From the IMG/VR virus record IMGVR_UViG_3300010885_036069, positions 1 through 64,000 of that record: a stretch of 64,000 nt of DNA; one strand, written 5' to 3'. Numbering within the stretch: the first letter of the stretch is position 1; every line of letters begins with the position of its first letter. The translations under genes and the position numbers were made by a program. The notes under the pieces were generated by a model. The model did not search any database. It worked only from the letters and a program-made list of their open reading frames with translations, and was not told where the DNA came from. This DNA comes from a virus. This document shows positions 9,637-59,670 of the stretch, piece by piece.

Positions 9637-9711
9637 ACTAGGTAAACGCATGAAGACCCATGAAATGTGCGCGCGTAATCCTGAAGAGCTTCGGGCCTGG
9701 AATCCCCCAGC

Positions 9712-9750
9712 AGCCCCGCTGGAGAAGTTTCGTGTAAGGGCAGCGGGACT
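9712..9750. repeat. GC-arm inverted repeat, copy 2
   Basis: AGCCCCGC (9712-9719) and GCGGGACT (9743-9750), just before the start of the HA-domain gene. It lies in a frame that would otherwise extend that gene upstream. Confidence 0.55.
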
Positions 9751-9766
9751 GCTAGGCTCAACGCCC

Positions 9767-10162
9767 ATGAACTCGTTTCCTCATCAAGCGCGCTTTGAGC
9801 AGAACGTTGAACTGCTCAGAAAGCTCGTAGCAGACCAGGGAAGTTGCAATGTCCCCCTCTCTAAGCAGATTTTTGATGAGGCTGGAACTGTCAACATCGG
9901 TCGATGGGTTGGCTACATCAAGACTAAGCACAAGCAGGGTCGCCTTGATCCCTACAGGATCGCGACACTGGAGGCGATCCCTGGCTGGAACTGGGAAACT
10001 CGACGATCAGGTCCTGAACCTAAACAGGCAGAACGAGACAACGAGATCCGGAGTCTTCGCAGGCAAGGGATAACCCTGGAGGCGATTGCCTTCAACTACG
10101 GACTCTCTAAGCAACGTGTTGCTCAGTTGTGCGAGGGAGTCAGGCCGGCAAAGAACCCCTGA
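9767..10162 (+). CDS. Helicase-associated (HA) domain plus HTH protein
   Basis: 131 aa. Residues 1-72 (RFEQNVELLRKLVADQG ... VNIGRWVGYIKTKHKQGRL) match the helicase-associated domain, a DNA-binding helical bundle. Residues 88-125 form an HTH (RRQGITLEAIAFNYGLSKQR). The frame extends to ATG 9650, but that extension encodes the GC-arm repeat, so ATG 9767 is preferred; TGCTAGGCT lies 8 bases upstream and could make it leaderless. Likely a DNA-binding regulator or nuclease accessory. Confidence 0.68.
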   Translation: MNSFPHQARFEQNVELLRKLVADQGSCNVPLSKQIFDEAGTVNIGRWVGYIKTKHKQGRLDPYRIATLEAIPGWNWETRRSGPEPKQAERDNEIRSLRRQGITLEAIAFNYGLSKQRVAQLCEGVRPAKNP

Positions 10163-10168
10163 CGCGCT

Positions 10169-10202
10169 GAAGCCCACTGAGTGGCGGTACTCAGTGGGCT
10201 TC
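10169..10202. terminator. Strong hairpin terminator
   Basis: A 14-bp stem, GAAGCCCACTGAGT with ACTCAGTGGGCTTC, around a 6-base loop, 7 bases after the HA-domain gene. No T-run follows, so it may work with a factor or in both directions. Confidence 0.65.
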
Positions 10203-10324
10203 AACTATCGGCAGCTCGAGGGTTAGGAGGCATAAGCCACCTCAAGCGGCCTTCTCAACTCTCGTAGGTGGCGGGTACCTTTGAGAGGAGATACTGGGGA
10301 GAGGCTTTCACCCCTCCCCCGATC

Positions 10325-11710
10325 TCATCGACGCAACCAAGCATCGGTGCGTGAGATTTGACCAATGGCCTGCGGAGCAAGTTTGCCTCCACGCTTGATA
10401 CTAAGGAGCGCTTTGACTGCACCTTCGGAATCGCGAACCATGTGGATCTTCTCCTTTGCCACAATCTTGGCACAAATCTCGGCCAAGTGATCGTGGAAAG
10501 AATCGCGATCGTCAGAAACAGCGCCATCGCAAACCCAAATAATAGGTTCACCCTGCTTGCGCTTCTTGACAGCAAACTCAAGAGCAGGACCGTCAACTCC
10601 GTTGCCACCATTACCCTTGCGGATAGCAGAGCAAACCTTTCCGTCTTGGGCAAGAACCCAAACATTGGGAGTTTCGCTGGAACCAGGACGATGGCTGTAG
10701 CCAATGACTGTGCATCCGGGGGCTGCCTCAAGGATTGCCCACAGGTCGGTTTCGTCCAAGTGCATTGATCCTGATTGATCGATGAGGACCACGCCACCCT
10801 TACCCTTGATCTTGCGATCAAAGACTCGGCGTTCGGGATCAACGAGCATCCGGCCAATGCGACGAGGATTGCGACCCATGTTGGTAGCGACTCGCTTGCG
10901 GCCAATCTGACCACCAACGCGTCGTGTCAATGGAATCTTCTCAAGGATGAGCGGAGCAAACGATCCACGCTTTCCACCGGTTCCACCCGGACGAACACGC
11001 TTCTTGATTTCCTCTGCATCAATTTCCTTGCCATCGGCATCTCCATCACCGTCGTCGGATTCTCCAGCCTCAAGGCCAACTCGAAGGATTTCGGCAACCG
11101 CTCTTGTGTAACGAGCAAAGCCATTCGGGATGCCATCAGCGTTGAGTTCGGTGTCACCGAGAGTCTTTGAACCGACCTTCTTGACGACCTTGATCATTGC
11201 CTTCTCAATCTCACGAAGAGCTTTCGCCCATTCGGGATCAACCTTCTTGACACCACGAAGGAAGTCGGCTGCTGCCTTTGTTCCTGCGGTTGCGCCAATG
11301 TTGAGGACTGCGCCTCGCCAATCGCCACGCTCGGCGCCACGCTCACCACTGGTGAACTCGCTGCCATCGCGAAGATCGTCGGTGCTAAATCCTGCCTTCG
11401 CAATCAAAGTGTTCACTCGGAACTCTTCTGCTGCGATGACTGCCTGAGGATCGATGTCATCAATACTTTCAACAGCGGCTCCGACATCAAAGGGAGAAAC
11501 TCGCACATGCATGAGCTCATGGATACGGATGATCCGACTAGCGGCATCCTCACCATAGGGAACCTTCATGCGCTTGTTGTCTAGGTCGGCCCACGCTTCG
11601 CCTCGCGCAGCCTGGCCCGCCTCAATTGCCCATGTCTCGCCGTTGTATTGCCCTCGTCGGTTGACGAACTCGGGCATAGCGACATTTGTTTGCTTGACTG
11701 CTTTACTCAT
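10325..11710 (-). CDS. VWA-domain protein with HEXXH motif (MoxR partner)
   Basis: 461 aa. The N-terminal third has HELMH at 64-68, a zinc-metallopeptidase-like motif. The C-terminal 150 residues are a von Willebrand A domain whose MIDAS motif DQSGS begins at residue 311. A charged Gly/Asp linker lies between. This order matches bacterial metallopeptidase-like/VWA proteins that pair with MoxR ATPases in chaperone or maturation modules. The MoxR gene is immediately upstream. RBS TAGGAGG is strong. Confidence 0.85.
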   Translation of the reverse strand: MSKAVKQTNVAMPEFVNRRGQYNGETWAIEAGQAARGEAWADLDNKRMKVPYGEDAASRIIRIHELMHVRVSPFDVGAAVESIDDIDPQAVIAAEEFRVNTLIAKAGFSTDDLRDGSEFTSGERGAERGDWRGAVLNIGATAGTKAAADFLRGVKKVDPEWAKALREIEKAMIKVVKKVGSKTLGDTELNADGIPNGFARYTRAVAEILRVGLEAGESDDGDGDADGKEIDAEEIKKRVRPGGTGGKRGSFAPLILEKIPLTRRVGGQIGRKRVATNMGRNPRRIGRMLVDPERRVFDRKIKGKGGVVLIDQSGSMHLDETDLWAILEAAPGCTVIGYSHRPGSSETPNVWVLAQDGKVCSAIRKGNGGNGVDGPALEFAVKKRKQGEPIIWVCDGAVSDDRDSFHDHLAEICAKIVAKEKIHMVRDSEGAVKALLSIKRGGKLAPQAIGQISRTDAWLRR

Positions 11711-11738
11711 AAGTGCCTCCTAAGGGCGTTGTTTGGAT

Positions 11739-11764
11739 GTGGGGGGACCGAAGTCCCCCCACAG
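11739..11764 (-). other. Intercistronic UUCG hairpin
   Basis: TGTGGGGGGAC and GTCCCCCCACA pair perfectly over 11 bp around a TTCG tetraloop, between the MoxR and VWA genes. No T-run. It may stabilise or process the mRNA, or set the ratio of the two proteins. Confidence 0.6.
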
Positions 11765-11769
11765 TGGGG

Positions 11770-12495
11770 TCAGACACCGAGCCGGTCAACCTTGAGTGCA
11801 TCAAGGATGTCCTGCGCTCGCTGTCCAAAGATGATCTTTGCAGCGCGCTCTTCGCCCAAACTCGAACGAAGATTGTCAAACGCTTGGAAAGTACGAACTG
11901 AGAACCGACGCTGGATTTCAGCATCAGCAAGGCCGGCGGCTGGACCACGAAGATCCGGCGAGAGGCCGAGTAGAGCGCCCGGATGGGGAGTGTTGATCCG
12001 AAGAGCAACAGGGAACCGGTCCTTGAGCGCCTCGGGAAGATCGCTCATGTCTTCAAGGTTGGTGGTCATGATGACCGAGAACCCATCAAGAGGCTTGATC
12101 TTCTCGCCGGTGGAGGGATGCTCCCATTCGGCAGAGGCAACCGTGTCGGTCATGGCAAGGAGCAGAGAGAGAACATCTCCCGATGCCTTGTCAATTTCGT
12201 CAATGACGAGGCGACCGCCAGTTTGGCCGTTGCCCTTCCACGCCTTGATCGCAGCTCCTTCGAGCCACTTCCATCCGTCGTTGCCCGCAGGCATCCAACA
12301 TCCGGTGACATCGGCAGCGGTCATGTCTTCAGTGCAGACGAGTCGGTATGAACCGGCTGACACATTGCCTTCGTTTAGTCCGGCATAGGTCTTTCCTGTG
12401 CCAGGAGGACCGAAGAGGATTACGCGATCAATTCCAGCCGAAACGACATCAGAGAAGTCGCTCCAGCACTGCGGTACTTCAGTAGTGCTAGTCAT
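11770..12495 (-). CDS. MoxR-type AAA+ ATPase
   Basis: 241 aa. Walker A GPPGTGKT at 29-36, Walker B VIDEID near 95-100, sensor-1 region IMTTNLEDM near 146 and RF near 165 mark a small MoxR/CobS-like AAA+ ATPase. Partners of this class remodel proteins through a VWA adaptor, which is the next gene downstream. Ribosome site TAGGAGG; transcription from the class I cassette at 12520-12570. Confidence 0.88.
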   Translation of the reverse strand: MTSTTEVPQCWSDFSDVVSAGIDRVILFGPPGTGKTYAGLNEGNVSAGSYRLVCTEDMTAADVTGCWMPAGNDGWKWLEGAAIKAWKGNGQTGGRLVIDEIDKASGDVLSLLLAMTDTVASAEWEHPSTGEKIKPLDGFSVIMTTNLEDMSDLPEALKDRFPVALRINTPHPGALLGLSPDLRGPAAGLADAEIQRRFSVRTFQAFDNLRSSLGEERAAKIIFGQRAQDILDALKVDRLGV

Positions 12496-12519
12496 TAGTG
12501 CCTCCTAAAGGCTTGTTGT

Positions 12520-12570
12520 GGGGTATTTCCCCGTTGCTAGATAAACGCACGATCTTGGTGAAGTGTGCGG
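12520..12570 (-). promoter_or_regulatory. Class I cassette with hairpin (MoxR-VWA unit)
   Basis: CACACTT, GTGCGTTTATC, hexamer TAGCAA, hairpin GGGG-AAATA-CCCC. Here the following ribosome site is AGGAGG instead of AGAAAGG. Confidence 0.72.
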
Positions 12571-39350: not shown

Positions 39351-39665
39351 GTTGTGAATAACCTGTGGATATGACTGTGGATATCCTATGGGTAACTGGG
39401 AGAGGCACCCCTGTGGGTAACTTGTCCACAGTCCCGTCATCGTTATCCACAATGTTGTCCACAGGATAAGGCCTATCCTGTGGACAACACGAGGGTTATC
39501 CCCAGCCTTATCCACAGACCTGCTGACTCCGACGGGACTATCCACAGCCTTGTGGATAAGTGATGCCTGTGGATAACTATCGACCTGTGGATATCCATGT
39601 GGATAACCCTGTGGATATGTGGACAACCTGTGGATATGTGGATAACTCTGTGGATAAATGCGGGA
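39351..39665. other. Candidate replication origin: DnaA-box cluster
   Basis: Eleven exact TTRTCCACA boxes (either strand) between 39422 and 39657: 39422, 39443, 39455, 39479, 39508, 39551, 39568, 39598, 39618, 39637, 39649, plus near matches such as TGTGGATAT. The left half holds mostly forward boxes and the right half mostly reverse ones. Lies at a strand switch between a leftward and a rightward operon. No iteron-binding initiator gene is adjacent, so host DnaA may act. Confidence 0.72.
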
Positions 39666-39775
39666 CTCCCAACTTTCCGGGGCCGGTCAGAAAGTGGGGG
39701 GGGACCAATATGGATCATCTAAGCCCCTTTTTCTGTTCGTACAAACGGAACGCCTCTCACTTGCTAGTCCTCTAT

Positions 39776-39804
39776 TTGACTTGTTCTATTTGGACTGTCA
39801 TACT
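39776..39804 (+). promoter_or_regulatory. Sigma-70-like promoter
   Basis: TTGACT (39776-39781), 17 bases, CATACT (39799-39804). Drives the rightward block starting with the deacetylase-like gene. Confidence 0.65.
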
Positions 39805-39849
39805 GCTCGGGAAGTAATTATCCACTATCTACTTGACCAGGAGGTCTTT

Positions 39850-40737
39850 ATGAACATCTATTTCAATAACTCTTACACGGCATCGCTATTTGCCTTTGAC
39901 ACCACCCGCAAGTCTGGCGATGTGGCTCAGTCTCTTCTAGATCGGCCCATTGACGGAATTACGCTTGTCGATCCTGTCGGATTCGCCCAGCGTGCTGAGG
40001 CGCTTATCAATATGGTTCACTCTTTTGACTATTACACCGCCGTCAAGTCGGGCAACCCACGCGACGTGGCGGAATCACAGGGCTTCTCATGGGACGAAGG
40101 AATCTTCCCAATGGCGCTAAATCACACCGCCGGTGTTGTCGCTGCTGCTGATGAAGCACTCAACCTCAACCGAGCGACGGGAACGCTCTCGTCAGGCTTG
40201 CACCACGCTAAGTGGGACCAAGGCGAAGGTTTCTGCACCTTCAATGGGCTTGCTGTTGCAGCTCGCCATGCGGTTGATGCAGGAGCGCGCGTTCTCATCC
40301 TTGACTTTGATGCCCATTGTGGCGGAGGCACCTACAGCCTTCTTGAAGACATCGGTGGTTATGTGACTCACATTGATGTGTCCGTTTCAGGCTTCGACAT
40401 GTACCGCACCGACGGCAATAATAAGTTGGTCATGTCTGAGTCCGGTTCATATGAATGGGATATCAACGCAGCACTTGATTACGCAAGCACCCTTGGACAG
40501 TTTGATTTGTGTCTGTATAACGCCGGCATGGATCCGTTCAACTGCGGTGTGAGCATTGATGAATTGGTCGCTCGGGAGAACGCTGTTGCTGCCTTCTGTC
40601 GCGATCATGTCCCCGCTACGGCCTTTACTTTGGCTGGTGGCTACACCTGGGGCGACGTGGAAATGAGCGAAATCGTTGATCTTCACCGCCTCACAATTAC
40701 GAGCTTTCAGGAGAGTTATGACTGCATCACAAACTGA
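39850..40737 (+). CDS. Histone-deacetylase-like amidohydrolase
   Basis: 295 aa from ATG 39850 with CAGGAGGTC upstream. GLHHAKWDQGEGFCTFNGLA (double His near 118), DFDAHCGGGT near 153 and NAGMD near 226 supply the charge-relay histidines and the three zinc ligands (D, H, D) of the HDAC/acetylpolyamine amidohydrolase fold; GGYTW matches the late glycine turn. It could remove acetyl groups from polyamine, protein or a modified nucleotide. Rare in phages. Confidence 0.78.
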   Translation: MNIYFNNSYTASLFAFDTTRKSGDVAQSLLDRPIDGITLVDPVGFAQRAEALINMVHSFDYYTAVKSGNPRDVAESQGFSWDEGIFPMALNHTAGVVAAADEALNLNRATGTLSSGLHHAKWDQGEGFCTFNGLAVAARHAVDAGARVLILDFDAHCGGGTYSLLEDIGGYVTHIDVSVSGFDMYRTDGNNKLVMSESGSYEWDINAALDYASTLGQFDLCLYNAGMDPFNCGVSIDELVARENAVAAFCRDHVPATAFTLAGGYTWGDVEMSEIVDLHRLTITSFQESYDCITN

Positions 40738-41164: not shown

Positions 41165-41459
41165 TTTAGTCGCTGCTGAAATGCGCGCCCGAGTCAATAA
41201 ATTAAAACTTGAGTCAACTATCAGTTCATATGAACGGACCCAGATGGGCCTTTTGGCGACTCGACTTAGCGAGAACCTTCCCTACGGGGATGACTCTGAG
41301 GTTGCCCGTCTTGAGTGGATGCTGATTTTCCTAGAGGGCGATTTTGACTGGAAGAACAAGTACAAGGAAGTTTTCGGTTCTGCACTCAAAGAGCCGAAAA
41401 AGAAACGGGATATGAAGTTTCCCAAGCCACGATTTGAAACAAGATCGGAAATGGCGTGA
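41142..41459 (+). CDS. Small module protein A1 (YKEVFG family)
   Basis: 105 aa from ATG 41142. MRARVNKLKLESTISSYERT, then ARLEWMLIFLEGDFDWKNKY and KEVFG closely parallel the C-terminal part of the protein at 43240-43701. Each paralogue sits directly before a very large protein, with overlapping ends, suggesting a chaperone, adaptor or docking partner. Confidence 0.65.
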   Translation: MQSQNKIDLVAAEMRARVNKLKLESTISSYERTQMGLLATRLSENLPYGDDSEVARLEWMLIFLEGDFDWKNKYKEVFGSALKEPKKKRDMKFPKPRFETRSEMA

Positions 41460-43147
41460 ATTGGACTTCTATCAAGGTGGTGCAGGGCCGAATCGGTGGG
41501 ACTTCCCCATCGGTCGGCTCAGCAGCGCGCATGACGAGAAATCTGAAGCCCGCTGCCTATGATCCGGATTCTGTAGACATTGATAATGATGGTTGGCATC
41601 AAGAAGGAACGACTGCTCAGTGGTTCGGATTGGGTCGTAATCATGTGCTATTTCGCGCTATAGCCCAGGCTTTTCGCAACGAAGGTGGCGACGGTCAGAC
41701 TATGGCCATGCAGCGGCAGTTTATTGATCTTGAGGTACGACGAAATGCGCCGCCAGTTGAGTTGTCAGATGAAGATACTGACATTGCATTTATTGCTGGA
41801 GTTCTAACCAACAACGATCCGACTCGGGATCAACTCAGCGTTGCCGAACTAGCAACTGCTAGGCGATTCTTAAAATATCGCCAAGATAGTCGAAATGAAT
41901 TTGAGCCGAGAAACAAGCCCTTTCAGGATCTTGATGGAGAAATTACTCCGGATTCCGATGGCTCAGTTAAGGGTGCAATCAAGCGACTCATTGAAGCCCG
42001 CAAGAAGCGTCGCGAAGAGCGTGAATCACGATTTCAAGAAGAAGTTGATCGGATGATTGACGATCCAACCAAAGATCTAGCGATTGAATACAAAGATCGC
42101 TACATGACCGACATGAACAACGCTAAAGAATCCTACGATGAAATTTATCGTAGGATTATGGATGATTACGCCAAAAAAGTCCGGCGCCCGAGTGCAAATC
42201 AATGGGAAACCTCTCCAGAAATTCGCGAATGGGAAAGAATGAACCCTGAGCCAAACCACAGACTCTACGATTCTCATTCTGATCTTCTTGATGCTATGGG
42301 TGAATGGAATGATGCTCGATCGGACAAGGTTTGGGAACTTTCGCGTCCGGCATATCAGGCTTGGGTTGCAGAAGTTGAGAAGATGGCGAATGAGGAGTTC
42401 AAGCGAATTCACGGATCCTTACCAGGAGAAGGCACGGAAGACCTCCAAAGTCAAACGGGCTTACTCACGGATATGTTCACTTTTTCGGCAATGGGCCGTG
42501 ACGGCCAGCAATACGATTTCCGAGTTGAGAATGTTGTAGACATGTTTGGATCTCTAATGATCCAAGGCGGAGTTTACGATAAGGATGGAAACAACATTGG
42601 AACCTACGAGCGTTCCTTTAAGGATGAGTCAAGAGATGTTCATCATGATCATCTGATTTTTAATTCAAGTGTTCAAAACCTTGGACTTGGTAGCATTTTT
42701 AATGCTCGCAATGAACAAGTTTACAAACTGATGGGTTTTGAGAGCATTTCTACTGCCGGCTTGTCAAACGATAAGGAATACAAGGGTGCCACTCATTGGC
42801 CCAAGAATGGATTTGATTGGGCAGACGACTGGGAGCGAGACAAGTTCCTTGGTCGAATTCAGACCTTCATTGATTTTTGGGAAAGCGAAAGCGCAAGAAC
42901 TTCAGATCAAAATGTAACTATTGTCCTGAAAAAACAACTTCCAGATGGAACATTCCAAAATGTTTCTATTCCACTCTTTGCTTCTGCGGAAGAAGTTGAA
43001 ATGATTCGCAAAATGGTAGATATGGCTAGATCACAGGACTTTAATGATCCGAACCGATTGGTTGCAGATGATTTTCTTCAGTTCCAAGGAGCAGAAGAGG
43101 CATTTAAGGTCTGGAAAGCAACCATCAATTACACGAGAAGCATTTAA
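41456..43147 (+). CDS. Large modular protein 1 (one DGWHQEGT module)
   Basis: 563 aa. Residues 30-60 carry KPAAYDPDSVDIDNDGWHQE, an EF-hand-like acidic loop followed by EGTTAQWFG. A helical middle (140-330) has many charged residues. The C-terminal 230 residues form a domain with IGTYERSF, VHHDHL, NARNEQVYKLMG, GATHWPKNGFDW and SIPLFASAEE. The same module occurs in the next two large proteins. The domain pattern (turn, then basic RNE, then GFDW) loosely recalls GNAT-like folds. Function unknown. Confidence 0.6.
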   Translation: MNWTSIKVVQGRIGGTSPSVGSAARMTRNLKPAAYDPDSVDIDNDGWHQEGTTAQWFGLGRNHVLFRAIAQAFRNEGGDGQTMAMQRQFIDLEVRRNAPPVELSDEDTDIAFIAGVLTNNDPTRDQLSVAELATARRFLKYRQDSRNEFEPRNKPFQDLDGEITPDSDGSVKGAIKRLIEARKKRREERESRFQEEVDRMIDDPTKDLAIEYKDRYMTDMNNAKESYDEIYRRIMDDYAKKVRRPSANQWETSPEIREWERMNPEPNHRLYDSHSDLLDAMGEWNDARSDKVWELSRPAYQAWVAEVEKMANEEFKRIHGSLPGEGTEDLQSQTGLLTDMFTFSAMGRDGQQYDFRVENVVDMFGSLMIQGGVYDKDGNNIGTYERSFKDESRDVHHDHLIFNSSVQNLGLGSIFNARNEQVYKLMGFESISTAGLSNDKEYKGATHWPKNGFDWADDWERDKFLGRIQTFIDFWESESARTSDQNVTIVLKKQLPDGTFQNVSIPLFASAEEVEMIRKMVDMARSQDFNDPNRLVADDFLQFQGAEEAFKVWKATINYTRSI

Positions 43148-43239
43148 GTATACCCTCCCCGCCACAAAATTTTTTCTTGGCTTCGCCATAAGAGATGCGT
43201 TGGTGGTTACTCAGTAAAACCGTCTATTCTGTAGGGATT

Positions 43240-43701
43240 ATGGCTACCGAAAATACAACTCCGCAACCGGCTCAGCCGACCCCAACTCCCGATCCCACAG
43301 CGGCTGCTCCGCCTGCCCCTCCAGAGGCTCCAGCACCCGCTGAAACGCCGACTGGAGAGCGCAAAGTCATCACTCCGCCGATTGACATGCTCGCAGAGCG
43401 GATGCGTGTACGGGTCAATCAGGGGTTCCTGAAGAGCAACCTTTCATCCGTAGATCGGAACTCGGTCAACCATCTTGCGGGAACACTTGCTCTTCAGAGC
43501 GACGAAAAAGACAAGGCATCAGCACGCCTTGAGTATCTGTTGTGTTTTTTGGATGGTGACATTGACTGGAAAAAACGATATAAGGAAGTTTTTGGTCTTG
43601 AACCGCCGAAGGAACGACGCTCTGTGATCATTCCCGAGTCAGTCCGTAAGCGCGGCAAGATTTCTTCAGCCAAGGGTGTAATAGAGGAACCCGATTACTG
43701 A
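43240..43701 (+). CDS. Small module protein A2 (YKEVFG family) with proline-rich N-terminus
   Basis: 153 aa. Residues 1-50 are proline/alanine-rich and flexible (QPAQPTPTPDPTAAAPPAPP). Residues 60-130 match protein A1: MRVRVNQGFLKSNLSSVDRN, RLEYLLCFLDGDIDWKKRY, KEVFG. The stop overlaps the next start. TAGGGATT serves as ribosome site. Confidence 0.65.
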   Translation: MATENTTPQPAQPTPTPDPTAAAPPAPPEAPAPAETPTGERKVITPPIDMLAERMRVRVNQGFLKSNLSSVDRNSVNHLAGTLALQSDEKDKASARLEYLLCFLDGDIDWKKRYKEVFGLEPPKERRSVIIPESVRKRGKISSAKGVIEEPDY

Positions 43702-46700
43702 TGAGCATCTTTGAGTCTTCTTGGGACAAAATTGAAATCAAGAAGATTCCAGGCTCACTCGGAACGCCAAACGCTCCAAGTGGGCCTGGTCGTCCGCGCA
43801 AACTTATTCCTGCCGTCTTTGACCCAAAGTCTGCCGATGCTGATTCCGATGGTTGGCGACAAGAGGGAACAACTGCTCGCTGGTACGGACTCGTTCCCAG
43901 TAATCCCATCTACAAGACTGTTCTTAGGAACCTAGAGAAAATTAAAGATCCCGAGGGAACCACTGACTGGCTCCCCGTCGGGATGACAAATCTTGATGAG
44001 TGGCTTGGGACTATTGATGAAATTGAAAATCATCGACTAAGGGCGCCAAAAGTTGAACTTTCAACGCGCGAGGCCGACCTTAGTTTTATTGCTGGTCAGG
44101 TAGATCTCAGGGCGCGTCAGGCACAAGCAAGTGGCCGAGAAGCCCCAAATATTGCCAGCGAAACGCGCCGAGCTGCTGCTTGGGTTAAAGGCCGAGAAAT
44201 TCAGCGACGACGCTTTGGAAAGGCTGATGAGTTTTTTTCTGACGCAGATCAGAGCGTCATCGTAAAGGCAGATCAACTCATTGAGGATCTGAAGAAGCAG
44301 CGCATTGAGCGTGACGCCAAGATCAAGCAAATTGTTCAACTTGATCCCGAGGTGGCAAAACTTGCTCGCGAATTTGACCCAACAAAATATGCTGAATCAA
44401 GGATGGAACTTTGGGAATGGTCGGACCTCAACGAAGAAGAATACCCCCCACCGGTAAGAGGTGATTTTGAAACCGAGCGAGATTACTTGGATGCGGTGAC
44501 ACAGTGGAACGCAGAATCTAATGATCGCTGGATTGATTACGAAAATGGCTATCAGGGGGATTCACCAGGTGACGAACTGGACAATCTAGTAGCGAACGTC
44601 TTTGACTTCTCTTTCACCAGCACTGAAGGTGATGATTACTATGTTCAGGTTGACTACATTGACGATGTAACGCAAGAGGGCATGAAATTACACTTCAGTA
44701 TTCGTACTGAAGGAGAGGGCAGTAGTCACGGATACCCCGATGGGACTCAAGTTGGGAATCTTGAACGGTCTTTGAATTTCTACCAAGGAACCGTTTATCA
44801 CGAAATTTTCATGCTTGACGAAGATGTCCGAGGTGGGCAGATTTCTGGAATCATTAACGCCCGCAATGAGCAGATTTATGAGGCAATGGGCATAAGGCAG
44901 ATTTCTGTTTCAGCCACCAGTAGCCAAAGCATGAATGGTGCGACCCACTGGCCGAAGGTTGGTTTTGACTGGGGCGATTCCATGGAGCGGGATTCCTATA
45001 TGAAGGTAATTGAAAAAGCCCTCGATGCGTTCGCATCTGACCTTGAAGATAATCCCGATGAACTGCCATGGGTCATTCTTGCACGCGATGCGAATGACAT
45101 AAAAGTTCCCATTTTTGCTTCCAGAGAAGAAGCCGAAATTGTCCGAGCGTTAGTTGAGCGAGCCAAGACTGAACAGTTTGATGACCCTGATCGACTAACT
45201 GCCGGCGACTTAGTTAACTGGGCTGGTGCCGAGGCTTGGTTCAAGCAAAGTCGAGTAACTGGACATTTAGTAAAGCCGGTTGGATCTAGCGGTAAGAACC
45301 CAGCAGTTAAGTGGCTAATCATTGAGCCTGAATACAAGGCCGTTGTTAAGCCAAATAAACCCAATCTCCCCAACACCCCAAAGAAGCCGAGCGTTGGCGG
45401 TGGCGCACCAAAACCTCGAGCCTTGAAACCTGCGGTATTTGATCCTCGTTCTGTGGACGTAGATAACGATGGCTGGCATCAGGAGGGAACTACTGCTGCT
45501 TGGTTTGGGGCCGGTCTTAATAATCCAGTGGTAAAGGAACTCCAAGACGCTCTTGGAAAACTTGGTGATGATGATCGGGAGTCTTCATACAATGCGATGA
45601 TTGCAACTGGCGGATATGGGATCTTTGAGGGCGCTCCAACTCCAGAAGCCTCAACCGCAGAGGCTGATCTTGCGTGGCTTGGTGGAAAAATTGTTCTCAA
45701 TGAGCAGCAACGGGAATCTTGGATGAGTGGCCCTCCCCCGCCACGTGTTGGTGGTGCTGATCGCTCACTTGAGGCCCAGTGGCTTCATGGGCGAGAAGAA
45801 GCACGGCGTCGTGGTGGAGTTCGGGAACAAGTCATCCCAACTCCAGAAATTGAAAAACTTGACGACGAAACCGTTTTTCAAGCAATTGATAAAGCCATTA
45901 CCGCCCGCCAAGAACGGCGCGCAATTCTTGATGCGAAAACACGAATTAAGTCCGATGATGCGGTATCTAGCGAATCAATAGAAAAAGCACAAAACTTTAA
46001 AGTTGATGATTATCCACCCGCCGATGGCTACGAAGTCGCTGACTATACCGAATGGTCAAAGACTTCTTACGAACCGCGTCCGGAAGCGATGGACTATCCG
46101 CTTGGGGGGACGCCGGAAGAATTTGAAGCATATGAAGCCAGCGTGGCGGAAACTATGCGATGGTCTGCTGATTCTTGGGATGCTTGGATTGAGTTTCAAA
46201 GAGAGCATGAAGATCTTGCAAATTCCGACCTGAGGGGAGCTACTAAGGAACTCTTTGAGTTTGAGTTCATTGGAAACAATGGGAAAACGTACTCAACCAG
46301 AGTTGATCGTGTTGTCCAATCCGCCATTGAACTTGATTCCGGTGAAGAAGGCACAATGTTTGGAATCAATGGAGTCTTCCTGGATGAAGATGGAAATCAA
46401 GTTGGATTTTTTGATCGTTCGTTTTATCCAGACCTTGGGATGGTAACCCACAATCATCTTGTTATTGACCAAGGGGAACGTGGTTCTCAGGTTTCAGGAA
46501 TTTTCAATTCTCGGAATGAAATCCTTTACCAAGAAATGGGTTACCACACCATCGGCGTAGGGGCGATGAGTGGGGCGGGTTACAACGGTGCTACCCACTG
46601 GCCCAAAGTTGGCTTTGACTGGGTGGACGAGGACCAAAGGAGCCTCACTCTCGGGGCGGTTGAAGACGCTTTGACTGAATTCGCTCTGGCAATCAAGGAG

Positions 46701-48551
46701 GATCCAGATGCACTTCCAATGCTCATTAAGATCATTGAAGATAACGATAATCCAGACATAACGACCGAAGTTAGGATTCCGATCTTTGCTTCTCGGGAAG
46801 AAGCCGAATCTGTTGCACTTTTAATCGCAATTGCGCGAGATCAAAATCTTGAAGACTCGGATCGACTAACCGCTGGTGATTTTGTTAACTGGTCTGGAGC
46901 TGAACTTTTTTTTCAGGAAAAGGGTATTCAGATTGAGTTAAGTCGCTCTATTGGTGGTCAAAAAGAATCTGCTGATGTTCCGGATGTCACGTCAGATGCT
47001 GGTATTGCAGTTGGCGGAATGAGCGCTGAAGAAATCCAAGAAAAAAATAAGAAAATTCTTAATGAGTTGGAAGTGGCTGGTTCCAGTTTTGGACGTATTG
47101 ATGAGGATTACAAGAGAGCGCAAGAACAAGCCGCGGCTGAAGGACGAGTTAACTCCCTTCATGTCCCGAAAACCCGTGAAGAAGCAATAGAAGCACGAAG
47201 AGAAACAACATCAGCCACAATCACTGCTGTTCGTGCTTACTTGGAAACCGGTGAACTCACTCCATGGAATGGCCGTGTTGGTATTAGTGAGTCTGATGCA
47301 GGGGCCTTAGACAACATGCCGCAAGCCTTACGGGAACTAATACTCACATCTACTGATGATGATTTAAACGACATGATCCTCAGTCAAGCAACACGAATGC
47401 AGGAAGAAGTGAAGGCGGGACGTATCCGTGTCAACGTGACAGATTCACGATTAGGTGCTGTTGTTGAAGATGGAGAATATAAGACGGTTTTTTCTGGCGC
47501 TCTAACGGATAATGCAAGAGTTGCTGGACGCGAGCAAATAGATGCTCGTATTTTGGGTATTCCAAGTGACATAGCGCCAGAACTTCACCCCGCATCCGGC
47601 TATGCCATCACCAGAGAACAAGGTCAGGCGGTGCGGGGAGATGGAGATGTTGAAGATACGGAACTCGCGTCCAAGTTGACGGGTATTGGTGGAACCTACG
47701 GAGATGTTGTATTTGAGTTGAAGCCCGAGGTCGCTGACCGAACATCGTGGAGTCTTGGTGACAGTATGAATGCCAAGGGTCCCGGTGTCGTCCGAATGGA
47801 TGAGGATGATCCCGAATACATCGCAGCCGTAATGATCAACGGAAGCGGCACGAAGAAACCACAAAATGTTGTACTCAACATGCTGGAAAGTGAACGCAAC
47901 GAAACGACATTGACAGCATCCGTCAGCAGACTCGGCGGGATTCCCGCTGCCAAAAGTCCAAATGAAGTTTCAGGCGCCGGTCATGACTACATCGAAACTA
48001 ACATTGCTGGAAGTTTCAATCTTGACGAAGTAGATTCAATTCGAGTCCCAAGCATTGAAACACTGAAGAAATCTGCCCTCCCTGTCGAAAGTGATGCCGA
48101 TGATTTGATTGACGGGAGATTTATGGAAAGGCAAAAGTTGGAGGCTGCCGGTATGACCGAAGGGCAGATTGCCTACATACTTGAGTTGAAAGAATCAGAT
48201 CCCAGTGCTTACAGGGAATATCTTCAAGACCAAAGACTCCAAAGCCTTGTTTACGCAGAACAAGTAGATAAGTTCGGAAAAAGCCTGTCCGAGAAGCATG
48301 GAGTGAGGCTTCTCATCGGGGATGAAGGGCGCAGTCCCGAGCAAGAAGTAGAGAAGCGACTTGAAAAAGTAAAACCCTTTTATGACACCCTTGCTAGAGA
48401 TGTTGATGCAGCGATAGCCAGTCGAGACGAAGATGCTCGTCGGATTGTTGAAGGTTTGCCAACTTTGGCCCAAGAAAGTCAAGCGGCACGAGAGGCTGAA
48501 GAAGCCCGAATTGCTGCCGGTGGCGGCTTAGACGTTGGAGGTCTTGGTTAA
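43701..48551 (+). CDS. Large modular protein 2 (two modules plus C-terminal effector-like domain)
   Basis: 1616 aa. Module 1: acidic loop KSADADSDGWRQEGT near 40-55 and GATHWPKVGFDW near 412. Module 2 repeats it: SVDVDNDGWHQEGT near 580 and GATHWPKVGFDW near 963; between them the linker KPNLPNTPKKPSVGGGAP. The last 500 residues differ: FELKPEVADRTSWSLGDSMN, then HDYIETNIAGSFNLDEV and IRVP, a pattern resembling DUF3626/ADP-ribosyltransferase-like domains. Likely a multi-domain virion or injected protein. Confidence 0.6.
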   Translation: MSIFESSWDKIEIKKIPGSLGTPNAPSGPGRPRKLIPAVFDPKSADADSDGWRQEGTTARWYGLVPSNPIYKTVLRNLEKIKDPEGTTDWLPVGMTNLDEWLGTIDEIENHRLRAPKVELSTREADLSFIAGQVDLRARQAQASGREAPNIASETRRAAAWVKGREIQRRRFGKADEFFSDADQSVIVKADQLIEDLKKQRIERDAKIKQIVQLDPEVAKLAREFDPTKYAESRMELWEWSDLNEEEYPPPVRGDFETERDYLDAVTQWNAESNDRWIDYENGYQGDSPGDELDNLVANVFDFSFTSTEGDDYYVQVDYIDDVTQEGMKLHFSIRTEGEGSSHGYPDGTQVGNLERSLNFYQGTVYHEIFMLDEDVRGGQISGIINARNEQIYEAMGIRQISVSATSSQSMNGATHWPKVGFDWGDSMERDSYMKVIEKALDAFASDLEDNPDELPWVILARDANDIKVPIFASREEAEIVRALVERAKTEQFDDPDRLTAGDLVNWAGAEAWFKQSRVTGHLVKPVGSSGKNPAVKWLIIEPEYKAVVKPNKPNLPNTPKKPSVGGGAPKPRALKPAVFDPRSVDVDNDGWHQEGTTAAWFGAGLNNPVVKELQDALGKLGDDDRESSYNAMIATGGYGIFEGAPTPEASTAEADLAWLGGKIVLNEQQRESWMSGPPPPRVGGADRSLEAQWLHGREEARRRGGVREQVIPTPEIEKLDDETVFQAIDKAITARQERRAILDAKTRIKSDDAVSSESIEKAQNFKVDDYPPADGYEVADYTEWSKTSYEPRPEAMDYPLGGTPEEFEAYEASVAETMRWSADSWDAWIEFQREHEDLANSDLRGATKELFEFEFIGNNGKTYSTRVDRVVQSAIELDSGEEGTMFGINGVFLDEDGNQVGFFDRSFYPDLGMVTHNHLVIDQGERGSQVSGIFNSRNEILYQEMGYHTIGVGAMSGAGYNGATHWPKVGFDWVDEDQRSLTLGAVEDALTEFALAIKEDPDALPMLIKIIEDNDNPDITTEVRIPIFASREEAESVALLIAIARDQNLEDSDRLTAGDFVNWSGAELFFQEKGIQIELSRSIGGQKESADVPDVTSDAGIAVGGMSAEEIQEKNKKILNELEVAGSSFGRIDEDYKRAQEQAAAEGRVNSLHVPKTREEAIEARRETTSATITAVRAYLETGELTPWNGRVGISESDAGALDNMPQALRELILTSTDDDLNDMILSQATRMQEEVKAGRIRVNVTDSRLGAVVEDGEYKTVFSGALTDNARVAGREQIDARILGIPSDIAPELHPASGYAITREQGQAVRGDGDVEDTELASKLTGIGGTYGDVVFELKPEVADRTSWSLGDSMNAKGPGVVRMDEDDPEYIAAVMINGSGTKKPQNVVLNMLESERNETTLTASVSRLGGIPAAKSPNEVSGAGHDYIETNIAGSFNLDEVDSIRVPSIETLKKSALPVESDADDLIDGRFMERQKLEAAGMTEGQIAYILELKESDPSAYREYLQDQRLQSLVYAEQVDKFGKSLSEKHGVRLLIGDEGRSPEQEVEKRLEKVKPFYDTLARDVDAAIASRDEDARRIVEGLPTLAQESQAAREAEEARIAAGGGLDVGGLG

Positions 48552-48553
48552 TT

Positions 48554-51500
48554 ATGGTTAAGCAGCAAATGATTGAAGTCGCAAAAACTTCAGATGCCAA
48601 AATCTATTTCATAATCAATCCAAAAGACATTGACAGTGATGGCGTAGTCATTAGGGGTAAAGAAACGGAGTATGTCCGATTTTGGTCGTATGTGACTCGC
48701 CTTGGTTCTGAACTTGTTCCGTTAACCAATAATGAATTTCTTAAATCTTTATGGATGTCAAATCTAAAAAGAAACAGCAAAAACTGGGCAAAAGCAAGCG
48801 AGGACTGGACTAAGAAGTTTCTCAATAGGGAAGTTGAATTCACCAGAGAAGAACTGAAATCAATAAGAACAAGTTTGATTCCAACTCCAATTGGTGAAAC
48901 TTCCAGTGGGGTCAAAAAGCAAGTTAGGCGTCGAGTCCTTTCTAAGAAAATCCTCCTTGAACAGATTGAACTCAAGGCCGTCAACAAGCCAAATCTCCCC
49001 AATACACCGAGCAAGCCAGGTTTGGGCGGGGGCGCTCCAAGCGCTCGCGTACTAAAGCCTGCGGTGTTTGATCCTCGTTCAGTAGATGTTGATAGCGACG
49101 GATGGCATCAAGAAGGCACTACCGCAGCCTGGTTTGGTGCTGGACTAAACAATCCGATTGTTGAATCTCTTAGGTCAGAAATGAGGCTAATCCAAGGGGC
49201 CGGAAATGCAGATTTAACCCATATGGCCAATTTGAACCAGTCGTACTTTAGTGATGCGCCCCCACCGCTGGGTTCAACCCTTGAAGCGGATTTATCTTGG
49301 CTTGGGGGCAAGCTCCTTAAAGCAAATGTGACGGACCCCGGCATGATAGAGGGTCGGTGGCTCGTTGGACGAGAGCAGGTTCGCAAGCAGAGTGGAATTA
49401 GAGAGGAGATCCTTCCAACTCCAGACATTTCTGAACTCAGCGATTCCGACATTATGGAGAATCTTGAGCAGATAATTGATGCTCGCAAGAAGGCGAGAGT
49501 TGCTAAAGACGCTAAAACTCGCATTATGGCCTCCGACAATTTGAGCGATGAGGCCGCAGGCGCCGCTAAAGATTTTGACTTTGATGCGATCAACCCTGAC
49601 GATGCCGATGAAGTTGCCCGAGCAATGTTCAATTTTGAATTTGTTGGGATGGATGATCAAAAGTATTCAGTTGAATTGGGTAAGAGTTATCTCCAGAGAG
49701 ATGATTATCAAGGCAGGCGCCTCACGATTAGCGGAAAAATTTTCAAAGACGGGAAAGAAGTTGGATTCTTTGACCGGACTATCTATTTAGACAAAAAAAC
49801 AGTTGCCCATGACCATATGCATCTTGACGAAGAGGTTCGCGGAGCGCAGATTTCAGGAATTATTAATTCTCGGAATGAATTGGTTTATCGCTCTTTGGGA
49901 TGCGATGCAATATCAACCAAAGCAACTAGCAATATCGGATACAACGGAGCAACACATTGGCCCAAGGTTGGATTTGACTGGGAGGATGATTATGCCCGTG
50001 AAGTTTATTTTGCTTCTATTGATTCTGCGTTGACTAAATTTGCTCTAGGAATTTCTGAAGAACCAGACGCATTGCCAATGATGATGAAATATGATGACAG
50101 TACTGGTTCATTTGTAAATCTTCCAATTTTTGCATCGCGAGAAGAGGCTGAAGAGGTTGCTCTTCTCTTAACCCTTGCTCGGACTCAAAGTATGGATGAT
50201 CCAGATCGACTTACATCTGGAGATTTAGTGAACTGGTCTGGTGCTGAATCATGGTTCCAAATCAACAATATTGAAGGAAATCTAGTTCGCAACATTGGTG
50301 GGCAGGAGGACATTGCGGATGTCCCTGAAGTCGCTGATATTCCCGAAGTTTCCAAACCCGAAATTCCGGCCAAAATGTCAAAACGCCCTAACTGGCTCAC
50401 TATGGAAATATTTAGTGAAGATCTTGAGGTGGCGATTTCTGAAATTCCAGAACAGAAATTGAAAAATGAAAAAGTACAAAAACTTATAGCGGATCTTAGA
50501 TATAGAGGTGAAAGTGCCTTCTTTTTTGGGGACTCCAATGGCAATGATACCTTTTTCCCTGGTGATCCAGAAGCGGATGAACCAGAAAAGGGCGCTCCTT
50601 TTGCAGAAAATTTAAACTTTGTTATTGATGAAGTTATCAGCGTAGGAGCAGATTCTATGAACTCTTATGTTAATTGGCTTACTGCAAGGGAACAGCAGAC
50701 TTATCGAATGGAACTTTTCGCTTCTGGGGAGCGGGATGAATTATATGACTTTGGAACAAAAGATGGTGATTTACTCAGTGTTGATGTGGACAAAGTTGTA
50801 ACAATGGCGCTTGATCCCACCGCTGATGAAGATCGCATCAAAGAGAGTGAGATTGAACTTCTTGATCTCCAAAGCAAGATGGTTGAAAGACTTGGGCGAC
50901 CAGGTGCAGAGTGGAGACATATTTCTTTCATTAACGGCAGTGGCAAAGAAGTCACCATGGTTAGGGGCATTGATTTTAACAAAGAGCAAGAAATGAAGGC
51001 TGCAATTGCACATGGCATTGGAAGTCTCATGGCTGACGAACTTAGTGTTGAGGAAATGATTGTCATGATTTACTTTATTGGTGCAGGATATGAGGCTGAA
51101 ATTTCTGATGAAACCCTTAATGACTTTGTGAGCAATTTCGGGAAAGGAGGCAAGGATCGACTTGCAATGACGCCTGAAGGCAGGGTTGAGCGGGGATGGC
51201 CTGGAACCAATAGCGATCAAGCAATTTCTCCCCTTTCGCCAGATTACAAAAAATTTATGGGTGAGTATATTGCCGATCAGTTGCTTGGAGCGTGGGCGCA
51301 TTCATCAAATAGCGGACTTGCGCTTGGAATTCAAAGTGCGGTAGAGCAAATTTTTGGTCAAAAGGATGGTGTTCGTTCATTTAAAATTTCAAACGATGAT
51401 CCTGAAATTACGAATGTGTATGAAGAGTTTGTAAAAGCGCAATACTTAATAACTCAGACAATGTTCAGAGATGCTGGGATAACAAAAATAACTACCCATC

Positions 51501-52048
51501 GAGGTATGATGTGGCACTCCAGCAAGGATAATCCGCTTGATTCCAATGCTGTCGGTAGGAATGCTTTTCTAGTTATTGAGGATGCGGAAGTAGCACTTCA
51601 GCCCGTTTCGTCAACTTCGTTCAACAGGAAAATTGCATATGGCTTTGCTGGAATGCGTGGTGAGGATACTTTGTCCGTGGTGGTCCATTCCGATACACCA
51701 GTTGAAAGGATTCTCTCTTCAGCATTTACGGGGATCGGGTGTCTAATCGAGAACGAACTAACGCTAATTGGCGGTGGAGACACAAGATTTAATCTTTCTG
51801 CAAGTTCCGGTATGCGTATTGATGCTGCCAAGGGAAATCTTATTGGAGCAGTTATTGACAGGTTCCGCAATGGTGAAACAATTGAAATTAGTGCTGCTGA
51901 GCGACTTAAAAATGCTGGCTATAGTGAGGAAGAAATCAAAAAAATCCAAGATTACATGACTAGGAATTCTGGGAAATTTCCCAATATTCTCCAAATTAGG
52001 GATATTCTCAGTGGCAAAATGCCTGAAAGTAACTTTGACTTAATGTAA
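48554..52048 (+). CDS. Large modular protein 3 with C-terminal ADP-ribosyltransferase-like domain
   Basis: 1164 aa. A unique N-terminus (1-150) is followed by linker KPNLPNTPSKPGLGGGAP, the acidic loop SVDVDSDGWHQEGT near 175 and GATHWPKVGFDW near 465. The C-terminal 250 residues show the three ADP-ribosyltransferase motifs in order: THRGMMW near 980 (Arg), PVSSTSFNRKIAYGF near 1018 (S-T-S) and ENELTLIGGG near 1067 (ExE). It would transfer ADP-ribose from NAD to a host protein, as T4 Alt does. Motif order is convincing; activity is inference. Confidence 0.68.
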   Translation: MVKQQMIEVAKTSDAKIYFIINPKDIDSDGVVIRGKETEYVRFWSYVTRLGSELVPLTNNEFLKSLWMSNLKRNSKNWAKASEDWTKKFLNREVEFTREELKSIRTSLIPTPIGETSSGVKKQVRRRVLSKKILLEQIELKAVNKPNLPNTPSKPGLGGGAPSARVLKPAVFDPRSVDVDSDGWHQEGTTAAWFGAGLNNPIVESLRSEMRLIQGAGNADLTHMANLNQSYFSDAPPPLGSTLEADLSWLGGKLLKANVTDPGMIEGRWLVGREQVRKQSGIREEILPTPDISELSDSDIMENLEQIIDARKKARVAKDAKTRIMASDNLSDEAAGAAKDFDFDAINPDDADEVARAMFNFEFVGMDDQKYSVELGKSYLQRDDYQGRRLTISGKIFKDGKEVGFFDRTIYLDKKTVAHDHMHLDEEVRGAQISGIINSRNELVYRSLGCDAISTKATSNIGYNGATHWPKVGFDWEDDYAREVYFASIDSALTKFALGISEEPDALPMMMKYDDSTGSFVNLPIFASREEAEEVALLLTLARTQSMDDPDRLTSGDLVNWSGAESWFQINNIEGNLVRNIGGQEDIADVPEVADIPEVSKPEIPAKMSKRPNWLTMEIFSEDLEVAISEIPEQKLKNEKVQKLIADLRYRGESAFFFGDSNGNDTFFPGDPEADEPEKGAPFAENLNFVIDEVISVGADSMNSYVNWLTAREQQTYRMELFASGERDELYDFGTKDGDLLSVDVDKVVTMALDPTADEDRIKESEIELLDLQSKMVERLGRPGAEWRHISFINGSGKEVTMVRGIDFNKEQEMKAAIAHGIGSLMADELSVEEMIVMIYFIGAGYEAEISDETLNDFVSNFGKGGKDRLAMTPEGRVERGWPGTNSDQAISPLSPDYKKFMGEYIADQLLGAWAHSSNSGLALGIQSAVEQIFGQKDGVRSFKISNDDPEITNVYEEFVKAQYLITQTMFRDAGITKITTHRGMMWHSSKDNPLDSNAVGRNAFLVIEDAEVALQPVSSTSFNRKIAYGFAGMRGEDTLSVVVHSDTPVERILSSAFTGIGCLIENELTLIGGGDTRFNLSASSGMRIDAAKGNLIGAVIDRFRNGETIEISAAERLKNAGYSEEEIKKIQDYMTRNSGKFPNILQIRDILSGKMPESNFDLM

Positions 52049-56946: not shown

Positions 56947-58872
56947 GTGTCAGTTATCAGTTCTGATTTTGTTTCTAGTTACGCATCCCAAACCCCTCCT
57001 TGGGGATTCGGTGGAATGGGTGAAATTGTTTACCTGCGTACTTATAGTCGTTCAATTCCTGAATTGGGTCGCAACGAAATGTGGCCTGAAACCATTCAAC
57101 GATGCATTAACGGCGCTGTTGAAATTGGAGCAGAACTTTCACAGGAAGAAGCGGAAAAACTCTTTGACCATATGTTCAATCTTCGCTGCTCACTTAGCGG
57201 TCGTTCCCTCTGGCAGCTCGGTACGCAACTGGTCAAGAAGTTCAACGGAACATCACTCAACAACTGTTATTTCACCTCTATTGAATCCGTAGAGGACTTT
57301 GAACTTCTCTTTGATTATCTGATGCTTGGCGGTGGTGTTGGATTCTCCGTAGAGCGATCAAAGATTCATGAACTTCCAAAGGTGAAGTCTGGAGTCACAA
57401 TTACTCACGAGCGCACCAACGATGCTGACATCATTGTTCCTGACTCACGCGGAGGATGGCGTCGTCTTCTTCATTCAGTTCTCAAGAGTTACTTCACGAC
57501 GGGGAAGAGCTTCTCATACAGCACCCTTTTGATTCGTGAGTTCGGCGCACCTCTCAGCACCTTTGGTGGGACCGCTTCAGGACCAGGTGCATTGATTGAT
57601 GGAATTTCCGATATCTGCAAAGTCATGGAGAATCGAGTCGGAAAGAAACTTCGATCAATTGATGTTCTTGATATTTGCAACATTATCGGTCGCATTGTTG
57701 TAAGCGGTTCTTCACGCCGTTCTGCTCAGATTGCCATTGGCGATCCGGACGACATTCTTTTTCTTCGTGCCAAGAATTGGGGAACGGGGAACATCCCTGG
57801 CTGGCGAGCAAACTCAAACAACAGCATCTATGCAGATGCTTATGAAGAAATCATGCCTGAACTTTGGAAGGGTTACGACGGTTCAGGAGAACCTTACGGA
57901 CTTTTGAATCGTCGTCTTGCTCGCTCTTACGGTCGTGTCGGTGAGCGCAAATCAGATCCATCAGTTGAGGGATTCAACCCCTGCGCTGAAATTGCCCTTG
58001 CTGACGGAGAGTCTTGCAATCTTGCAACAATCTTCTTGCCATCAATTGAGTCATTTGAACAGTTCTGTGAAATTTCAGAACTTCTTTATAAGGTTCAGAA
58101 GGCAATCACGAGTCTTGATTATCCATACGAGAAGACAACAACGATTACTCGCAAGAATCGTCGCCTTGGTCAGTCAGTAACTGGAATCCTTCAATGTTCT
58201 GAGGAACAGTTGGCGTGGCTCTCACTCGGCTATGAAAACCTTCGTGCTTTTGATGTTGCCTACTCAGCGGAGCATGGAGTTCCAGAGTCAATTCGACTTA
58301 CCACAGTTCAGCCGTCAGGAACGCTTTCGCTCCTCCCGGGTCAGACTCCTGGCATTCATCCAGCATTTGCTCGTTACTACATTCGTCGTGTTCGGTTCTC
58401 TAGTGCTGATCCCCTCGTGGAGTCATGCCGTAAGCGCGGCTACAACGTGGTTCCCGAGGTCGGTATTGATGGGCGGGAAGATCACACAAAGTGGGTTGTT
58501 GAATTTCCCGCAGAGTCCCCAGAGAATGCAGTCCTCGCTAAGGATATGACCGCAATTGATCAGTTGGAATGGGTAAAGCGTCTTCAGGCTGAGTGGGCGG
58601 ACAACGCCGTTTCGGTGACGGTCTATTACCGCAAGGAAGAACTTTCAGAAATCAAAGATTGGCTTTCAAAGAACTACGACAAGCACATCAAGAGCGTTTC
58701 ATTCCTTCTTCATTCTGACCATAACTTCCCACTCCCCCCATACGAGGAAATCAGCAAGGAGGAGTACGAGCGGATGCTGTCAAAGGTTGACTTCTCAATT
58801 TCAATTGCTCCGAATGCATCTGGTGACCTTCTTGATGAGTCCTGTGCAACAGGGGCTTGTCCTGTACGGTAG
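56947..58872 (+). CDS. nrdJ: Class II (cobalamin-dependent) ribonucleotide reductase
   Basis: 641 aa. NNCYF near 107 and ESCNLA near 358 are the reducible cysteine pair; FNPCAEI near 345 holds the radical cysteine and glutamate; the C-terminal CATGACP is the shuttle pair. The layout matches monomeric Lactobacillus-type adenosylcobalamin-dependent reductase acting on ribonucleoside triphosphates. It supplies dNTPs without a second subunit or oxygen. No B12 riboswitch was seen upstream. Confidence 0.9.
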   Translation: MSVISSDFVSSYASQTPPWGFGGMGEIVYLRTYSRSIPELGRNEMWPETIQRCINGAVEIGAELSQEEAEKLFDHMFNLRCSLSGRSLWQLGTQLVKKFNGTSLNNCYFTSIESVEDFELLFDYLMLGGGVGFSVERSKIHELPKVKSGVTITHERTNDADIIVPDSRGGWRRLLHSVLKSYFTTGKSFSYSTLLIREFGAPLSTFGGTASGPGALIDGISDICKVMENRVGKKLRSIDVLDICNIIGRIVVSGSSRRSAQIAIGDPDDILFLRAKNWGTGNIPGWRANSNNSIYADAYEEIMPELWKGYDGSGEPYGLLNRRLARSYGRVGERKSDPSVEGFNPCAEIALADGESCNLATIFLPSIESFEQFCEISELLYKVQKAITSLDYPYEKTTTITRKNRRLGQSVTGILQCSEEQLAWLSLGYENLRAFDVAYSAEHGVPESIRLTTVQPSGTLSLLPGQTPGIHPAFARYYIRRVRFSSADPLVESCRKRGYNVVPEVGIDGREDHTKWVVEFPAESPENAVLAKDMTAIDQLEWVKRLQAEWADNAVSVTVYYRKEELSEIKDWLSKNYDKHIKSVSFLLHSDHNFPLPPYEEISKEEYERMLSKVDFSISIAPNASGDLLDESCATGACPVR

Positions 58873-58877
58873 TGATC

Positions 58878-59669: not shown

Positions 59670-59670
59670 C

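Follow-up and report, generated by a model that had tools for sequence, protein, structure and literature searches.

What does a gene pair for a MoxR-type AAA+ ATPase and a VWA-domain protein do in a virus of bacteria? The question is raised by IMGVR_UViG_3300010885_036069, a 116,661-bp record of a freshwater virus of bacteria, whose first 64 kb (64,000 nucleotides, hereafter the window) were analyzed. An earlier note on this DNA had reported two adjacent genes on the minus strand, and both were recovered, correct to the base:

11770 to 12495, minus strand: MoxR/NorQ-type AAA+ ATPase of 241 aa (motor)
10325 to 11710, minus strand: zincin-like and VWA partner protein of 461 aa

The VWA gene starts 59 nt downstream of the AAA+ gene. 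The first assignment is based on a Pfam match, an AlphaFold model and PDB matches to NorQ and CbbQ, and the second on adjacency to the AAA gene, an AlphaFold model and a match to the VWA domain of NorD. The N-terminal HELMH and C-terminal DQSGS that had been noticed in the 461-aa protein are both present (residues 64-68 and 311-315). The implied novelty of a phage-borne pair does not hold, as a MoxR plus metallopeptidase-vWA pair is already described in jumbo phages (PMC7824862) and cobST pairs in many tailed viruses (PMC8651126). The module of the window is a divergent, real example of the published MoxR plus metallopeptidase-vWA kind. Phage AAA+/VWA pairs are common and are often labelled CobS/CobT or peptidase. 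On the other side of the VWA gene, and convergent with it, a protein with Helicase-associated and HTH domains is encoded at 9650-10162 on the plus strand, and a member of the same family lies downstream in the opposite orientation at 18 of 92 pair loci. Between the two convergent genes, a sequence scan found one further element:

10168 to 10203, no strand assigned: 15-bp inverted repeat, terminator-like

The AAA+ protein was matched by Pfam AAA_5 (E 7e-14) and by PHROG 16448, annotated 'ATPase' (5e-34). Its nucleotide-binding motifs are

12388 to 12411, minus strand: Walker A, GPPGTGKT, residues 29-36; G29, G32, G34, K35 and T36 invariant in 35 relatives
12190 to 12213, minus strand: Walker B, RLVIDEID, residues 95-102; D99, E100 and D102 invariant in 35 relatives

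and sensor 1 (TTN) and the arginine finger (DRF) are recognizable as well, with the key residues of all four elements unchanged across the 35 relatives. The Walker motifs, on whose function the earlier note had made its proposal depend, are conserved in sequence. The AlphaFold model, built from an alignment of relatives (pLDDT 90.1), contains a helix-2 insert hairpin (strands 65-70 and 74-79) and a C-terminal helical lid (helices 180-239). The helix-2 insert is a mark of the MoxR group. When this model was compared with the PDB using Foldseek, the best 12 matches were all NorQ, followed by CbbQ. The best NorQ match had a Z of 16.2 over 215 residues, but its rmsd was near 4 Å, which counts against a NorQ-type reading. 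Comparison of an AAA profile with solved structures gave matches only to Midasin, NorQ, CbbQ and one Lon. Judged from these alignments and the predicted fold, the AAA+ protein belongs to the MoxR/helix-2-insert group and is of the NorQ-CbbQ type.

For the 461-aa protein, no Pfam or NCBIfam model was matched, whether VWA, peptidase or other, and the sole PHROG match was the uncharacterised 33218 (1e-40). Its AlphaFold model (pLDDT 92.5) contains a VWA fold, for which the best match in the PDB is the VWA domain of NorD in complex with NorQ (Z 9.4; Foldseek E 7e-3; 134-148 residues aligned). The margin is small, with other VWA domains reaching Z 8.7, and VWA folds are common. The alignment to 9qh6 begins at residue 252 and takes in the region preceding the VWA core; residues 252-300 of this region hold the invariant G279 and D291, align with NorD in the model and are a candidate for a finger that would enter the AAA pore. 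No solved structural match was found for the N-terminal half, the fold search being filled by VWA domains, and a VWA profile gave nothing meaningful against the sequences of solved structures. The metal site of the VWA domain is located at

10766 to 10780, minus strand: DQSGS of the VWA MIDAS, residues 311-315; D311, S313 and S315 identical in 95 of 95 aligned proteins

and D311, S313, S315, N370, D373 and D395 are identical in all 95 aligned VWA proteins. A conserved threonine of the usual MIDAS kind was not seen in this alignment, where the invariant N370 and D373 occupy the expected loop instead, and the MIDAS is therefore a variant site. The earlier note had also staked its proposal on a MIDAS; of the canonical DxSxS-T-D pattern, DxSxS and D395 are present in 95 of 95 sequences and no conserved T was seen. 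In NorD, where the MIDAS is required for function and dispensable for NorQ binding, a T-to-V change in this site inactivates the protein (PMC9976466), which counts against a NorD-like reading here.

The N-terminal half carries two motifs that could bind zinc:

11507 to 11521, minus strand: HELMH, candidate zinc site, residues 64-68; H, E and H retained in 75 of 95 sequences
11423 to 11428, minus strand: E95-E96 of EEFRVN (residues 95-100), candidate third zinc ligand, co-conserved with HExxH

An EExRVN-type motif, with minor variants, is present in all 75 sequences that retain HExxH, and together they make a plausible zinc peptidase site. This would suit an ATP-dependent metalloprotease, in which the motor would deliver proteins of host or phage to the zinc site for defence removal or host shut-off. 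We regard this as rather unlikely. HExxH is missing from 20 of the 95 aligned VWA proteins, and on a tree built from an alignment without the HExxH columns its state changes four times, at least two of the changes being forced by well-supported branches, so that several lineages lost the site while retaining motor and VWA domain. The lack of a peptidase family match in Pfam and NCBIfam also argues against a protease, as do the occurrence of the pair in bacteria at an SOS-like locus (see below) and the PADLOC result, which gave only weak P-loop similarity. That similarity was to IetA, and an anti-phage defence system was rejected as a candidate for the pair. Two loci inside an otherwise HExxH-bearing clade, L014 and L015, have REMVR in place of HExxH (near residue 64) and keep all VWA residues. 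A zinc site that is found in most lineages and lost in some is not an indispensable part of the machine, and the invariance of the six VWA/MIDAS residues, set beside the absence of HExxH from 20 of 95 sequences, suggests that the core function is mechanical and not proteolytic. Across the alignment, the candidate zinc site is expendable over evolution and the putative VWA metal site is not.

The two genes are tightly linked. A search for linked MoxR-VWA pairs, proposed in the earlier note, gave many viral loci: searching viral contigs with the AAA protein alone returned 80, in 79 of which the VWA gene is adjacent, and in the remaining one the contig ends about 15 bp past the AAA gene. Searching with the VWA alignment returned 80 loci from viruses and 21 from genome bins. 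By their titles, almost all of the bins are Actinobacteria, and an AAA gene lies upstream in nearly every locus. The VWA protein found nothing among 50,697 phage records, searched at nucleotide and protein level; only the AAA protein found relatives there, the distant ones in cultivated actinophages being those of DSL-LC01 and of the Gordonia phages Sixama and GMA2. The HExxH-VWA protein of DSL-LC01 has relatives of its own in Microbacterium phages (NC_073468.1 162341-164269 and similar genes, H15-H21), whose label 'AAA-ATPase' looks like a misannotation. The complete bacterial-style module of the earlier note is thus supported by the linkage, the conserved motor and VWA residues and the NorQ/NorD fold matches. 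Either of the roles suggested in the earlier note, remodelling of a host complex or help with assembly, would be compatible with this evidence.

Among 92 pair loci, the commonest recognizable neighbours were a replication initiator (23), a helicase loader (22) and a DUF1599 nucleotide gene (20), a gene context that points to the replication/nucleotide-metabolism region rather than to structural genes. The bacterial copies have a context of their own. In Acidimicrobiaceae bins, a LysM gene, nrdR, a PIG-L deacetylase gene and dinB lie downstream of the pair, nrdR being the second gene downstream in 11 of 12 MAGs, and lexA is divergent on the other side, with transporter genes intervening in some bins. 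A perfect LexA-box-like palindrome, CGAAC-N4-GTTCG, was found just upstream of the AAA open frame in 5 of 15 loci, all near lexA (L105, L106, L107, L108 and L112), and in bacteria the pair may be under SOS control.

These neighbourhoods bear on a possible role in virion assembly, in which the motor would remodel structural proteins and the zincin domain would cleave them. Such a chaperone-protease is the published proposal for the jumbo-phage pair, which has the same architecture (PMC7824862). In the archaeal virus ATV, virion and tail proteins are interaction partners of the MoxR-VWA proteins (PMC4124505). Co-packaging of a MoxR-like ATPase has also been discussed for a Staphylococcus jumbo phage with adjacent AAA and metallopeptidase genes, a finding flagged by its authors as needing confirmation (PMC10638138). 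However, the conserved neighbours of the present family are replication and nucleotide genes, the bacterial chromosomes carry the pair in the lexA-nrdR-dinB context with no phage structural neighbours in the loci read, and 20 of the 95 aligned sequences lack the catalytic motif. We consider a virion-assembly role unlikely, while granting it appreciable weight.

Since both AlphaFold models match NorQ-NorD best in the PDB, the pair most likely works like NorQD/CbbQO, that is, as a two-protein ATP-driven remodelling machine, and we give this reading a probability of about 0.8. To remodel nitric oxide reductase, NorQD places a finger in the pore of its AAA component and twists (PMC13036017), and its mechanism has also been studied in PMC9976466. 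By analogy with NorQD, the AAA+ protein would assemble as a hexameric ring. A single VWA protein would dock on this ring and insert its finger, at about residues 260-300, into the pore, and its VWA domain would be twisted as ATP is hydrolysed. A client may be gripped by the MIDAS metal together with the N-terminal zincin-like domain and would thereby be pulled into an active or assembled state. The gene linkage, the motor and VWA residues, the predicted folds and the dispensability of the zinc site, but not of the VWA site, over evolution are the directly supported parts of this reading. The pair would probably act early in infection, on a client presumably belonging to replication or nucleotide metabolism.

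Expression of the pair may be adapted to such a complex. The perfect 11-bp UUCG hairpin that had been reported between the genes was confirmed by an inverted-repeat scan and by folding:

11738 to 11763, minus strand: intergenic C(UUCG)G hairpin, perfect 11-bp stem, TTCG loop

Its predicted stability is -28.3 kcal/mol (z -4.2), and none of 200 shuffles was as stable. In the two nearest relatives the same place holds a hairpin in other letters, its stem being 9 bp long with UUCG in L001 and 8 bp long with a GAAA loop in L003, so that, in these three sequences, the predicted structure is kept through sequence change. A classical terminator was considered and rejected because no U-tract follows the hairpin, which was also absent from the terminator scan. 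At 34 of 79 other loci there is no such gap, the AAA and VWA genes having a few bases in common. The hairpin could hold VWA output below AAA output, in keeping with a 6:1 complex. The AAA gene is preceded by

12515 to 12568, minus strand: repeated promoter/leader-like cassette, GCACACTT...GTGCGTTTATC...GGGGAAATACCCC

The outline of this cassette is common to genes starting at 13024, 13420, 14034, 15777 and others. It precedes the AAA gene and several small genes, and none was found before the VWA gene, which suggests that AAA and VWA form one transcript. The 'class I cassette' from which the earlier note had the pair expressed is accordingly real in outline upstream of the AAA gene, but is not found upstream of the VWA gene. 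Between about 9000 and 23000 of the window, the leader GCACACTT ... GTGCGTT(TATC or ATAC) ... GGGGAAATACCCC stands before many small genes on both strands and looks like a phage-specific promoter with a 5' hairpin. Other genes of the window include one for a histone-deacetylase-family protein, phage-encoded, at 39658-40737 on the plus strand (Pfam Hist_deacetyl, 8e-21), and three for large proteins (563, 1616 and 1164 aa) at 41456-52048 on the plus strand. The latter have common repeated blocks, PAVFDPxSxDxDxDGWxQEGTTAxW ... GATHWPKxGFDW, which appear to be tandem paralogous domains.

Which client would a NorQD/CbbQO-type machine serve in this phage? The window encodes one candidate:

56947 to 58872, plus strand: adenosylcobalamin-dependent ribonucleotide reductase (RNR), candidate client; TIGR02505 (RTPR) 370.7 bits, cut-off 340; PDB 1l1l, 1e-90

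Directly after it, at 58857-60207 on the plus strand, lie genes for a PhyH-type dioxygenase (8.7e-19) and a methyltransferase-like protein. In a specific form of the NorQD/CbbQO-type explanation, the pair would be an activase for the B12-dependent class II RNR of phage or host, which loads, ejects or reseats the cobalamin cofactor. CbbQO acting on inhibited Rubisco and NorQD acting on the iron of nitric oxide reductase provide the analogy. We hold this more specific form to be improbable as matters stand, and treat the RNR link as a lead. Besides the RTPR-type enzyme of the window, among pair-bearing contigs of 100 kb or more all but one of 16 have class II RNR (15 of 16, against 8 of 22 among shorter, incomplete ones), and the pair was found in 3 of 3 contigs of at least 100 kb that carry class II RNR. 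This co-occurrence is explained equally well by shared ancestry, the phages being related, and the two may just belong to the core gene set of a single viral group. Moreover, RNR is lacking from the complete phages Sixama and GMA2, which carry a related pair, and from the pair-bearing 118-kb contig G085. RNR was found in none of the 6 contigs whose VWA protein lost HExxH; we do not claim this correlation as evidence, because it reduces to two independent comparisons of zinc site and RNR, which are not significant.

In the Acidimicrobiaceae, the pair adjoins LysM-nrdR and lexA, the RNR of the two pair-bearing MAGs that were typed is the class II, B12-dependent NrdJ, and the class I small subunit was found in 0 of 20 pair-bearing MAGs. 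The last result is weak evidence, since most genomes of the order lack class I RNR in any case (it is present in 49 of 148). The nrdJ gene lies elsewhere in the bacterial genome and does not adjoin the pair, and the lexA-nrdR neighbourhood could reflect SOS regulation instead of RNR. That a dedicated activase of class II RNR is common to freshwater actinobacterial phages and to the SOS-like lexA-nrdR locus of Acidimicrobiaceae is a doubtful proposition at present; if it holds, we know of no earlier case of an AAA+/VWA machine that services a ribonucleotide reductase.

Vitamin B12 could enter in another way if the proteins were CobST-like cobaltochelatase subunits that raise B12 supply through the CobN of the host. 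Phage pairs of this layout have been annotated or interpreted as CobS/CobT (PMC8651126), the partner protein of DSL-LC01 is annotated as a cobalamin biosynthesis protein, and the model resembles a CobT-like protein of Gordonia phage GMA7. A cobaltochelatase identity is nevertheless unlikely, and we would give it very little credence. The CobT profile PF06213 was unmatched at E up to 10, while the control was positive in Caulobacter; the AAA protein matches NorQ/CbbQ first; and CobN was absent from 34 of 34 pair carriers, including seven bacterial MAGs, in a search of the carriers themselves; the phage hosts could still have a CobN. The family of the window offers three handles, namely NorQ/NorD-like folds, an expendable zinc site next to a kept VWA metal site, and the bacterial lexA-nrdR locus. 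Together they lead to a testable guess at the client, class II ribonucleotide reductase, and speak against the B12 chelatase label.

Compared with known systems, the NorQD/CbbQO-type machine proposed here has both viral and bacterial counterparts. ATV p618/p892 (PMC4124505) is likewise a virus-encoded MoxR with a VWA partner, which stimulates its MoxR, but ATV is an archaeal virus, and its proteins have no metallopeptidase domain and are linked to tail development. In the CobT-like pairs of actinophages (Actinomycetia phage DSL-LC01, Gordonia phages Sixama and GMA2), an AAA gene lies near that of an HExxH and DxSxS VWA protein. Their AAA proteins, however, are only about 30% identical to that of the window, their VWA proteins were not found by tblastn from the window protein, and a profile comparison with phage CobT-like proteins aligned 44 columns around HExxH-EExR with a probability of 1.8%. 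By published description, the group 2.2 jumbo phages (PMC7824862) have the same adjacent genes for an AAA+ motor and an N-terminal metallopeptidase-vWA protein. The family of the window differs from them in being compact (241 and 461 aa), in having a VWA protein without Pfam match and in having lost the zinc site in several lineages.

The Rubisco activase CbbQ/CbbO has a different client, Rubisco, and we know of no zincin-like domain described in CbbO. It has the same two-gene layout of motor and VWA protein, and its AAA protein was the next-best structural match (PDB 6l1q, 5c3c). NorD differs from the partner protein of the window in its canonical MIDAS with T534, its known membrane client and its N-terminal domain, which was not seen to match the zincin-like half. 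For both proteins, however, the NorQ/NorD pair of denitrifying bacteria (PDB 9qh6, 9qh8; PMC13036017) was the best match in the PDB, and it has in common with the phage pair both the helix-2 insert AAA and a region before the VWA core that also aligns.
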